A stretch of 64,000 nt of DNA from Bacteroidaceae bacterium (GTDB taxonomy: Bacteria > Bacteroidota > Bacteroidia > Bacteroidales > Bacteroidaceae), in NCBI GenBank assembly GCA_017429525.1, contig JAFROT010000030.1, positions 198,599 through 262,598 of the forward strand. The letters are read 5' to 3'. Each line of letters begins with the position of its first letter. Position 1 is the first letter of the stretch. The position numbers were made by a program, and so were the translations under genes. Of the stretch, positions 34,324-45,848 are shown in pieces. The notes beneath the pieces were generated by a model. That model ran no database searches. It saw only the letters and a list, made by a program, of their open reading frames with translations, and was not told the origin of the DNA.

Positions 34324-36003
34324 TCAGATGCAAGCTTTCACGAACGACATGAACAAGGGATGCGGGCTGAGCACGGTGGACGAGTATTCAGGGTGGAACT
34401 GCGTTCCGATGTACCATCTATGAGTCGGTATCTCCACGATCTCGACAAGGCCCGTGCCGGGATTTATGCCCACGCACTTCATACCTGCTGCCTCATATTC
34501 CTCTTTATACTGGTTGTTGAACTCATAGCGATGCCGATGACGCTCGCTGATCTCTGTCACACCGCCGTATGCCTCGCAGGCACGACTTCCTGCTCTGAGC
34601 AGGCAATCATATGCTCCCAGTCGCATGGTACCTCCCTTCTCCTTGATGCTTTTCTGCTCTTCCAAGAGGTCAATGACGCCGGCAGCGGCGTCGGGGTTCA
34701 TCTCCGTGCTGTTGGCATCTTTGTAGCCGAGGACGTTTCGTGCGAACTCTACCACCATCATCTGCATACCGAGGCATATGCCGAACGTCGGGATGTCATG
34801 GGTGCGTGTGTACTCTGCTGCGATGATCTTTCCCTCGATGCCACGTTGCCCGAAGCCCGGGCAGATGATGATGCCCGCCATGCCGTCCAGCCTTTCCGCC
34901 ACGTTTCCCTCGGTTATCTCTTCACTGCTGATGAAGTATAGCTTCACCTTTACATTATTATAAACACCCGCCAGGTTCAGGCTCTCGCGGATGCTCTTGT
35001 AGGCATCTTGAAGGTCGTATTTACCGACTAGACCTATATGTAACTCGCGGGTAGCACAACGCTGTTTTTCAAGGAAGTCGTGCCAGGGTGCCATGGCGGG
35101 TGTCTCGCCGACGGGTATGCCTGTCTTGCGCAGGATGGCGGCGTCGAGGCCTTGACGCTGCATGCTGACCGGCACCTCGTAGATGCTTGCCATATCCTCG
35201 CTCTGCACCACACATTCCAGGTTGACATTGCAGAACGAAGCCACCTTCATGCGCAATGCGTCGTCGAGGTGGCACTCGGTGCGCAGCACAAGGATGTCGG
35301 GCTGGATGCCCATGCCTTGCAGTTCCTTGACGGAATGTTGGGTGGGCTTCGTCTTCAGTTCATCGGCTGCCTTCAGGTAAGGAACGAATGTCAGGTGCAC
35401 ACAAACGGCATTGCGCCCCAACTGCCATCGAAGCTGACGGATAGCTTCCATGAACGGCGCGCTCTCTATGTCGCCGATGGTGCCGCCCACCTCTGTGATG
35501 ACGAAATCGAGAGACCCCTCTAAATCTCCCCGTGAGGGGAGACTTTCCTTTCCACAGGCCATCACTGCGCCAGCCTTATCCCCTCCCTGACGGGAGGGGG
35601 CGGGGGTGGGTCTTTCTCTCAGCATCCTTCGCTTTATCTCGTCCGTGATGTGTGGCACCACCTGGATGGTCTTGCCCAGATAGTCGCCACGGCGTTCGCG
35701 GTCGATGACAGCCTTGTAGATGCGCCCCGTCGTGATGCTGTTGTGACGTGTGGTATGTATGCCCGTGAAGCGCTCGTAGTGGCCGAGATCCAAGTCCGTC
35801 TCCATGCCGTCGGCCGTGACGTAGCACTCGCCATGCTCGTACGGGTTCAGCGTTCCCGGGTCGATGTTGATGTAAGGGTCGAACTTCTGGATAGTGACCT
35901 TGTAGCCACGTGCTTGCAGCAGCTTGCCGATGCTCGCGGCTATGATGCCCTTTCCGAGCGAGGAAACCACGCCGCCTGTCACGAAGATGTACTTTGTATT
36001 CAT
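34324..36003 (-). CDS. pyrG: CTP synthase, carrying a repeat-encoded insertion
   Basis: Aminates UTP to CTP using glutamine and ATP. The start is [20 protein letters not shown] at 36003; the longer frame to 36048 adds a repeat-encoded leader. 559 residues: synthetase domain with [20 protein letters not shown], then glutaminase with [16 protein letters not shown] (Cys nucleophile) and [10 protein letters not shown]. Between EIKRRML and [16 protein letters not shown] there are about 36 extra residues (about 130-166: [11 protein letters not shown] ... [11 protein letters not shown]) not found in ordinary CTP synthases. They are encoded by two GC-rich palindromic elements (see separate entry). 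All recognisable active-site motifs are kept, so the enzyme is probably functional with a surface loop. Confidence 0.95.
35511..35610. repeat. Inverted pair of GC-rich palindromic elements inside pyrG
   Basis: Element one (35511-35543) contains TCTCCCC-GTGA-GGGGAGA. Element two (35580-35610) contains CCCTCCC-TGAC-GGGAGGG followed by a GGGCGGGGGTGGG tract. They are oppositely oriented: C-rich tract plus palindrome on the plus strand for the first, on the minus strand for the second. Together they encode the extra ~36 residues of PyrG without breaking the frame. Similar pieces occur in gltB and beside dapL. Confidence 0.8.
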
Positions 36004-36087
36004 AACTGTTTTCTTTGCTTGATGATGATGCAGCAATTGCTTCATCATGATGCAGCAATTGCTTTATCATGATGAAGCAACCGATAA
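36004..36087. repeat. Palindromic tandem repeat upstream of pyrG
   Basis: Two near-identical units, each containing GCAGCAATTGCTT and then ATCATGAT, follow one another at about 36031-36075. GCAATTGC and ATCATGAT are themselves palindromic. The tract fills the gap between the small outer-membrane gene and pyrG. Confidence 0.7.
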
Positions 36088-36777
36088 TCATAGGGAGAAT
36101 GAGGCGCCCAACAGGAGATAGAGCTTCTCAGACCTGGGGTTGGCGGTCAATCCGACGAATAGAGGAAGGTGATACCTCTCTTTGATGACGAAGTCCTTGG
36201 TGGCACGCAGACTCACGTTGGTTACGCAGAAGCCGTTGGCGTCATAGAGTGTCGTGGCATAGGGCACGGCACCGAGCGTGGCCGTCCAGTCGAGGTTTCC
36301 CAGACGGAAAGGCGCCGACAGCTCCAAGTAGCTGCTGTAGGCACGTTTGCCATCTTTGTTTACGCCATCATCTCCTGCGAAATTGGTGTACCACTGCACA
36401 TTAAGGAAGCCGAAGTCATACCCTAAGTTGGCCTCCCATACGTGCGTAGTCTGATGGGCTTTATATTTGAAATAGCTGCCGTTGGAAAACCAATAGTCAG
36501 TAACGCCGACATTAAAGCCCTCGTAGGTATAGCCAAGCGTCAGGTCCAGTTCCTTGGTATCTCGTGGATCGGTGATTCCTACACTGCCCCAGGCAGAGAG
36601 GCTGAGTCCTTGCCAGCCGATACCCAACGAGGGTTGAAGGCTCGCGTCGCCTAAGTCCTGACCGCGCCAGATGTATTGGCTGACGAGGTCGGCGCCAAGA
36701 CTCGCCTGCAACTTATCTTGAGCTTCTGCTGTAGCCATGCCTGCTACACACAGGAATATGAATAGTATCTTTTTCAT
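36088..36777 (-). CDS. Small outer-membrane beta-barrel protein of the amt-glnK cluster
   Basis: 229 residues from the ATG at 36775-36777 (MKKILFIFLCVAGMATAEAQ, a signal peptide). The mature part is all amphipathic beta strands (GADLVSQYIWRGQDLGDASL, LSAWGSVGI, LDLTLGYTYEGFNVGVTDYW) and ends in LYLLLGASFSL, a good barrel C-terminus. It resembles the TorF-like putative porins that accompany ammonium transporters in Bacteroidetes. It is transcribed after amtB with a 35-bp gap, so it may be a nitrogen-regulated pore for ammonium or small amines; that is inference. Confidence 0.75.
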   Translation of the reverse strand: MKKILFIFLCVAGMATAEAQDKLQASLGADLVSQYIWRGQDLGDASLQPSLGIGWQGLSLSAWGSVGITDPRDTKELDLTLGYTYEGFNVGVTDYWFSNGSYFKYKAHQTTHVWEANLGYDFGFLNVQWYTNFAGDDGVNKDGKRAYSSYLELSAPFRLGNLDWTATLGAVPYATTLYDANGFCVTNVSLRATKDFVIKERYHLPLFVGLTANPRSEKLYLLLGASFSL

Positions 36778-36812
36778 CGTTTCTTTATGCTTAATATGAC
36801 TTGATTGATGGT

Positions 36813-44944: not shown

Positions 44945-44956
44945 ATGGTAAATCCC

Positions 44957-45808
44957 ATGGTTCCTTTCACCAAAATGCACGGCTGCGGCAACGATTATAT
45001 CTACGTGGATGCCTCGCGCTACCCTATTGCCGCCCCCGCAGATACAGCCAAGCGATGGAGCAGCCCACACACTGGCATCGGCAGCGACGGGTTGGTGCTC
45101 ATAGGCCGCAGTCCCATCCCCGAGGCCGATTTCACGATGCGCATCTTCAATGCCGACGGTTCCGAAGCCCTGATGTGCGGTAACGCCAGCCGCTGCATCG
45201 GCAAATACGTCTACGAACGTGGCCTGACGGACAAGACGCTCGTGCGGCTGCTCACCGCCTCGGGCATCAAGATGCTGGTGCTGAACACCGCCAGGACGTC
45301 GGCCCGCGAAGTGGCGAGCGTCACCGTGGATATGGAAGAGCCCGTCTTTGATGTGCCATCGCAGTTCCTGCCAAGTGAAGGCAGCGACTTACCCGAAGGG
45401 ACCTTTGTCAGCATGGGCAATCCCCACTACGTCATCTTCGTGGCCGACATCACGGCTATAGACGTGGCAGCCGAAGGCGCACGCCTTGAACGCCACCCGC
45501 AGTTCCCGGAGCGCTGCAATATCGAATTTGCCGAAATGCGTCCTGACGGCATTCGCATGCGCGTCTGGGAACGCGGCAGTGGCATCACGCTAGCCTGCGG
45601 CACAGGCGCCTGTGCCACAGCCGTCGCGGCGGCCCGAACGGGCCGTGCGCCACGCCACTCCCGCATCATCATGGACGGCGGCACGCTCGATATTGAATGG
45701 CTCAACGCCGACCGCACCTTCCATGATCACACCTTTGCCCGCAACCACGTCCTCATGACCGGCCCTGCCGCCTTCGTCTTTGACGGTGAGATATCAAAGG
45801 ACAATTAA
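44957..45808 (+). CDS. dapF: Diaminopimelate epimerase
   Basis: Converts LL- to meso-diaminopimelate for lysine and peptidoglycan. I choose the ATG at 44957 ([20 protein letters not shown]); an in-frame ATG four codons earlier is just inside the repeat tract. 283 residues. Both catalytic cysteines are visible: [18 protein letters not shown] and [17 protein letters not shown]. Next to dapL it completes the aminotransferase variant of the lysine pathway. Its 3' end is followed by a palindromic element before dapL. Confidence 0.95.
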
Positions 45809-45810
45809 AG

Positions 45811-45848
45811 GACTCTTCCCCCGCCCTCCCTAAGGGAGGGAGCTGTTA
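45811..45848. repeat. Single GC-rich palindromic element between dapF and dapL
   Basis: CCCCCGCCCTCCC-TAA-GGGAGGGAG has the same C-rich arm plus GGGAGGG palindrome as the copies inside pyrG and gltB, but here it is intergenic. It could act as a terminator or mRNA-stabilising hairpin. Confidence 0.8.

Follow-up and report, generated by a model that had tools for sequence, protein, structure and literature searches.

The question raised by this 64,000-nucleotide stretch of a Bacteroidaceae bacterium genome (GenBank assembly GCA_017429525.1, contig JAFROT010000030.1, positions 198,599 to 262,598; hereafter the window) is how palindromic DNA came to be read in frame inside two conserved enzymes, CTP synthase (PyrG) and the large chain of glutamate synthase (GltB). 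Five C-rich palindromic pieces are present where an earlier reading of the bare sequence, the original prediction, had placed them. What that prediction missed is that these palindromes match the ends of candidate mobile elements encoding a DUF559 protein. In the explanation that we consider probable, the palindromes are non-autonomous or solo ends of such a DUF559 element, in a system resembling repetitive extragenic palindromic (REP) sequences and their REP-associated tyrosine transposases (RAYTs) with a homing-type nuclease as the enzyme. This small nuclease of predicted homing fold is tied to the palindromic repeats by position, copy number, and covariation.

Each palindromic piece, or arm, consists of a C-rich head (for example AGACCCACCCCC), a hairpin (CCCTCCC, a loop, and GGGAGGG), and a short tail, and the consensus of 22 copies reads AAAGACCCACCCCCnnCCCCTCCCGTCAGGGAGGGGAGnGGCTnGnn. 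The CCCTCCC/GGGAGGG core originally assigned to all five pieces in the window is exact in three of them and varied in two. The pyrG open reading frame (ORF; 34324..36003, minus strand; Pfam CTP_synth_N, E 5e-118, plus GATase) contains an insert of about 110 bp following DEIKRRML. The distal end of this insert is an arm of a second family (35510..35549, plus strand; AGAGACCCCTCTAAATCTCCCC-GTGA-GGGGAGACTTTCC, with the hairpin TCTCCCC-GTGA-GGGGAGA), and its proximal end is the arm AAAGACCCACCCCCGCCCCCTCCCGTCAGGGAGGGGATAAGGCTGGC (35569..35615, minus strand; hairpin CCCCTCCC-GTCA-GGGAGGGG), a covariance model match of 58.9 bits (C26:234167-234213:-) that is read as a 13-residue peptide. In gltB (38789..43351, plus strand; ORF and Pfam), the arms occupy two loops, placed by alignment, with about 100-120 bp of native gltB sequence lying between them. 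The first loop holds GCCCACCCCCAGCCCCTCCCCAAGGGAGGGG (40543..40589, plus strand; match C26:239141-239187:+, 36.7 bits), which has a perfect 8-bp stem and is read AHPQPLPKGGETD, and the second holds the inverted arm AAGCCCACCCCATCCCCTCCCCAGCGGAGGG (40685..40731, minus strand; stem CCCTCC-GCTGG-GGAGGG), which is 88% complementary to the first. A single arm (45808..45854, plus strand; match C26:244406-244452:+, 33.2 bits) stands at the dapF stop codon, before dapL. The strands of the arms, plus then minus in each gene, agree with the inverted arrangement that had been proposed, and both genes remain open as claimed. The idea of two copies per gene has to be refined: the pyrG arms are the ends of one insert, whereas the gltB arms sit in two separate loops.

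Chance or base composition as the origin of the palindromes is ruled out by their abundance in the source assembly, which is 86% complete. The pattern CCCTCCCN4GGGAGGG with at most two mismatches occurs at 126 genome sites versus 11 for the reversed pattern, and the head GACCCACCCC occurs 97 times on both strands versus once in the control. The further copies that a dispersed repeat should have were found with a covariance model, which lists at least 141 in the genome at E <= 0.1; this figure is a lower bound because the scoring covered only 150 of 1262 candidates and the matches listed do not include the second gltB arm. Of the 42 close pairs among those matches (less than 400 bp apart), 36 have their heads outward, six point in the same direction, and none has its heads inward. 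This arrangement bears on the suggestion that pyrG and gltB each received two independent insertions whose orientation was set by tolerated reading frames alone. The gltB loops are indeed separate sites; however, pairs that lie outside reading frames have their heads outward as well, and the paired arrangement in gltB has been repeated by about six families, so that independent insertion is barely credible. A body common to the interiors of the 36 inverted pairs was also considered and rejected, as the median local score (8.0) is near that of shuffled sequence (7.0), although a few pairs are related.

The first lead to an enzyme came from the phosphoglycerate mutase gene, whose end carries a palindrome followed by a Pfam DUF559 domain. 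The source assembly has four DUF559 matches, all of which lie between inverted palindromes with heads outward (arm scores 18-41.5). The arms are alike within each locus and by eye represent four different families, two of which recur elsewhere in the genome with 13 exact matches, four being the DUF559 genes' own arms, and with 24 matches at up to two mismatches versus 2 in the reversed control. A comparison set of 101 genomes of the genus (G numbers; loci have L numbers) was then used, 68 of which contain DUF559. In the 33 loci taken for the arm test (the best matches, one per genome, plus the four of the source genome), 34 of 34 DUF559 domains have inverted arms scoring at least 12, and 29 have arms scoring at least 16, as compared with 13 and 1, respectively, of 438 random windows in palindrome-bearing stretches of the source genome. 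A scan of the best 80 of 539 loci from named genomes, titled nearly all as Prevotellaceae, Bacteroidaceae, or other Bacteroidales metagenome-assembled genomes, gave 79 usable loci after L216 was dropped as too short, and inverted arms (score at least 12) frame DUF559 in 77 of these versus 11 of 299 shifted windows. The DUF559 locus of Prevotella sp. tc2-28 (L269) has an arm score of 14. The arm family of the window itself frames DUF559 in L276, where alignment to the source-genome consensus scores 44.0 and 33.5 of a possible 48 and the agreement extends to the nonpalindromic tail, and also in L272 (scores 30.5 and 44.0). The elements are 405-975 bp long (median 507), with DUF559 as the only recognized gene.

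The association of arms with DUF559 is present in several bacterial phyla. Outside Bacteroidota, 16 of 21 plasmid DUF559 loci have arm scores of at least 12 and 13 of 21 reach at least 16, versus 12 and 5 of 84 shifted windows. The passing loci come from cyanobacteria (5/6), Deinococcus (4/4), Sphingomonadales (5/5), Hyphomicrobiales (1/4; L338, a long repeat), and Azospirillum (1/1; score 14, lacking the look of a C-rich hairpin), and the one Photobacterium locus does not pass. The encoded protein is predicted to be a Vsr-like/EDxHD endonuclease domain, with the EDxHD fold and its conserved residues both recognized at the profile and sequence level: an alignment of 24 sequences has 20 invariant columns, acidic and histidine residues among them, and the profile matches the mobile-intron protein 3r3p (E 5.4e-8) and 3hrl. 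We take 3r3p to be I-Bth0305I, an EDxHD homing endonuclease. The recognized DUF559 domain spans only about 105 residues. In contrast to the EDxHD homing endonucleases that its profile match recalls, DUF559 was not seen in an intron or intein here, is framed by hairpin arms, and is accompanied by many gene-free arms. The assignment itself has precedent, since a DUF559 gene is placed in the EDxHD homing family in PMC9403480 and a DUF559 protein is described as Vsr-like in PMC12907096.

Palindrome number and DUF559 number rise together across the 101 genomes (rho 0.59, p 6e-11), with a median of 37.5 net palindromes in genomes with DUF559 and 5 in those without. Nuclease identity likewise tracks aligned arm identity (Mantel r 0.33, permutation maximum 0.20, n 114), and an earlier Mantel test with a cruder identity measure gave r 0.19 against a permutation maximum of 0.18. 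These results bear on whether DUF559 is a passenger that settled between pre-existing palindromes moved by another agent. A passenger would fit the fact that the evidence is one of association and that the arms frame gene-free DNA as well, including native gltB. It would not be expected, however, that arms match within a locus and differ among the four loci of the source genome, that nuclease and arm sequences covary, that palindrome number follows DUF559, or that other phyla show the same association with different arms, and we regard a passenger role as unlikely.

A further candidate is a RAYT, that is, a Y1 transposase of the HUH type mobilizing classical REP elements. REP/RAYT systems (REPtrons, REPINs), as described in PMC3733652, resemble the present one in their head-plus-hairpin repeats, inverted doublets, many gene-free copies, repeat-framed enzyme gene, and occasional copies within proteins. 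A Y1-like gene exists in the source genome (L017:3959-5239; 22.7 bits, 23.1 with neighbors, and 20.9, below cut-off, in another search), and Y1_Tnp matches occur in 41 of the 101 genus genomes. The enzyme between the arms, however, is a DUF559 nuclease rather than a Y1 transposase, and the heads are GACCC, GCCTC, and GCCCC rather than the REP tag GTAG or CGTC at the palindrome end. Palindrome number does not follow the transposase (rho 0.14, p 0.17, 101 genomes), and 25 of the 101 genomes have at least 30 net palindromes and no Y1 match. When Y1 genes were submitted to the arm test (30 loci, two with flanks too short), 19 of 28 Y1 reading frames proved to be flanked by inverted arms, but by eye these arms are hairpins of different types (among them GTAGCC... 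and AGCCCAGGGC...), and the C-rich head plus hairpin of the window appears in none of them. A Y1 transposase as the driver is rejected on these two counts, copy number and hairpin type, and a RAYT origin of the palindromes is quite improbable. Since the Y1 genes of the genus are framed by other repeats, REP/RAYT-like units seem to coexist there with the DUF559 palindromes as distinct entities. The Y1-like protein of the source genome is divergent, 426 aa long, and encoded beside an rnf-like cluster, and the nearest listed palindromes are more than 1 kb away.

In alignments of PyrG and GltB, most relatives lack the palindromic residues; with the further copies in the genome, this means that neither of the outcomes set to refute the original prediction came about. 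Extra residues at the PyrG insert site occur in six of 17 genus members, the source genome included. The DNA of this site contains C-rich palindromes of differing families in G000, G019, and G014, an AT-rich inverted repeat (GTTGACAAGTTGACA...) in G015 and G017 (L019 and L022), and a short insert with no palindrome seen in G021. A different kind of in-frame repeat appears in the PyrG of G001 (L025), where the insert RLRVGDGTSGM is present twice, at two sites. GltB was matched in 57 of the 101 genomes, with 33 loci examined and 32 aligned (G066 was left out). An inverted arm pair sits at the same two loops in 12 of these 32 loci (arm score at least 11.5, the twelfth being G090); of the 20 remaining, 15 have scores no higher than 8, and the five left unscored have no extra residues. 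By eye, the pairs make up about six families in different lineages: GCCCACC (G000, G103, G078, G092, and G097), AGCCCCCTCCC (G101, G088, and G014), GACCCACCCCC (G089), and one family each in G090, G015, and G109. A hairpin remnant remains in the first loop only in G084 and G112. Because the two arms of one genome are alike and those of different lineages differ, the pairs either arise together or are converted together, and the pattern appears to favor a history in which a family, on its arrival, converts the arms already in place over direct paired insertion. A bolder proposal is that DUF559 nucleases are the engines of a widespread, unrecognized class of mobile elements at home in palindromes, each nuclease cutting the arms of older families and having them converted to its own, with pairwise turnover at fixed sites such as the two GltB loops. 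We put this forward tentatively, as a possibility that we would not yet favor; if true, it would account for a large share of bacterial C-rich palindromic repeats and for a steady source of new loops.

How far the arms have entered other genes was assessed from 73 stretches around the model matches, using the longest frame over each copy (some frames are clipped at the ends of the stretches). Of the 141 listed copies, 67 are set 90 bases or more into 45 open frames that are 120 aa or longer. A Pfam family is matched by 35 of the 45 host frames at E <= 1e-5 (1e-3 in the last batch; a few fall below the curated cut-off), and among the hosts are CTP synthase, glutamate synthase, UvrA, DnaG, a MutS2-like protein, threonine synthase, a MiaB-like enzyme, an RsmF-like protein, TamB, and phosphoglycerate mutase. 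Tolerance in at least two reading frames had been predicted, and all three frames are used in both directions, though very unevenly (20, 13, and 1 forward; 11, 5, and 17 reverse). In four proteins, comparison with solved structures places the copies in insertions or in unaligned stretches: threonine synthase, UvrA (residues 499-540), the MiaB-like enzyme (residues 109-172), and PyrG, whose residues 130-162 are unaligned to structure 9kao. The inserts are presumably translated. The proposal of a dispersed palindromic repeat, tolerated in several frames and both orientations, from which conserved enzymes gain loops specific to a lineage is supported. A preference of the elements for gene interiors is the wrong description, as they are depleted there relative to random windows from the same stretches (67/141 versus 2917/4054); this depletion is as expected if most insertions within genes are lost.

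The same copies speak to the idea that the palindromes are RNA-level elements, such as terminators or mRNA stabilizers, that serve at gene borders and occasionally slip into genes. About half of the listed copies do lie outside gene interiors, and base pairing of the stem is preserved by double changes in two of five predicted pairs. So many copies deep in open frames are nevertheless hard to reconcile with slips, an Rfam scan of window positions 35000-46500 returned no family at gathering score (the two matches, at E 0.64 and 0.94, were far below it), and a terminator role leaves the framing of DUF559 unexplained, which together make an RNA-level function highly improbable. Some of the DUF559 genes are themselves continuous with host reading frames: in 11 of 114 elements, the open frame extends upstream across the left arm for 60 codons or more, with phosphoglycerate mutase (identified by Pfam) and IspG (identified by inspection of the sequence) as examples of the gene it comes from. 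DUF559 stands in one open frame behind IspG in four genomes (L172, which is G000 C8, L305, L299, and L310).

The same 114 elements represent 60 sites by flank similarity; at the 14 sites where flanks were viewed, the elements were judged by eye to be located at the ends of protein genes or in the gaps between them. Three observations are signs of movement. Two elements of G109 are 89% identical with unrelated flanks (L294). At one site shared by two genomes (L171 and L202), the element is 99% identical and the flanks 83-86%. In three Deinococcus species (L290, L339, and L344), a DUF559 gene breaks up the hpa operon, and the gene border at which it does so differs among the species. A further pair of loci, L190 (G004) and L203, is identical across element and flanks. 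Neither extreme history fits: strict vertical inheritance fails because 17 of 106 pairs from one site differ as much as pairs from different sites do, and strict independent insertion fails because 49 of 82 nearest neighbors are at the same site.

Taken together with the framing and covariation, these data are consistent with the following mechanism for a DUF559 element. Arms would exist singly or as inverted, outward-facing pairs that frame a nuclease gene or other short DNA. The DUF559 nuclease would recognize its own arm family and cut the arm or a nearby site, after which host recombination would copy arms or the whole element into the break. The nuclease might also act in trans on gene-free arms. 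The survivors would be copies that leave the reading frame uninterrupted, whether within protein loops or at the ends of genes, and would thereby appear as new loops in PyrG, GltB, and other proteins. Occasionally, the outcome would be a nuclease joined to a host protein.

A number of observations weigh against this explanation. No DUF559 element with the arm family of the window was found in the source assembly at its 86% completeness, and the link between the window arms and DUF559 thus rests on other species. The gltB arms frame native sequence, which is not accounted for if a paired element was simply inserted, and most of the 36 pairs have interiors with no relation to one another. In G015 and G109, the GltB arms belong, by eye, to other families than the DUF559 arms seen there. 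Five of the 21 plasmid DUF559 genes have no inverted arms (three from Hyphomicrobiales, one from Synechocystis, and one from Photobacterium), and one passing plasmid locus, L340, lacks the C-rich hairpin look. The rho of 0.59 uses one hairpin pattern and is uncorrected for phylogeny or genome quality, and three genomes (G017, G081, and G099) have at least 30 net palindromes and no DUF559 match; the 114 elements behind the Mantel r of 0.33 had been selected for an arm score of at least 14. Much of the distribution is inherited, since same-site elements are so often related, and most same-site pairs show no element better conserved than its flanks. Finally, no target-site duplication was found in 58 elements (best z 3.5 among 288 combinations of length and offset, identity 0.29 versus 0.25).

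Target-site duplication is a feature of DDE-type miniature inverted-repeat transposable elements (MITEs). Besides lacking a detected duplication, the elements here differ from these MITEs in that their ends are themselves hairpins and their gene-bearing form encodes a nuclease. The two share inverted ends, gene-free copies, and in-frame fusions, as MITEs of DDE insertion sequences are described in PMC10969869. The same source describes the Rickettsia palindromic elements, in which palindromic DNA is likewise translated in frame as part of metabolic enzymes that are unrelated to each other. This likeness is one of residence; the arms here are shorter, use several frames and both strands, and have a candidate enzyme. 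In-frame palindromes inside proteins (REP-decorated) have already been described outside Rickettsia, in PMC3733652, and so the in-frame aspect alone is not new. We found no description of a link between DUF559 and palindromic repeats in the open-access literature; most subscription papers were outside this scope, and a prior description is possible. To our knowledge, many abundant bacterial palindromic repeats have no known enzyme, RAYTs being the main exception. The DUF559 palindromes would work like a REP system with a different enzyme, and they would form a new class if the nuclease were shown to do the moving. A causal link would add a new type of enzyme for repeat mobility and help to explain how foreign DNA can enter conserved enzymes in frame without being lethal. 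Annotators gain a reason for odd proline- and glycine-rich loops in Prevotella-like proteins, and because different families have used the same two GltB loops again and again, the conversion of old sites is directly testable.

Two further repeats lie near the genes discussed here. Directly upstream of pyrG (window 36015-36080), three 22-base units form nested inverted repeats, and at the 3′ end of gltD (window 44811-44957), a tandem 14-base repeat (AATGGACAATGGAT and variants) contains the gltD stop codon.

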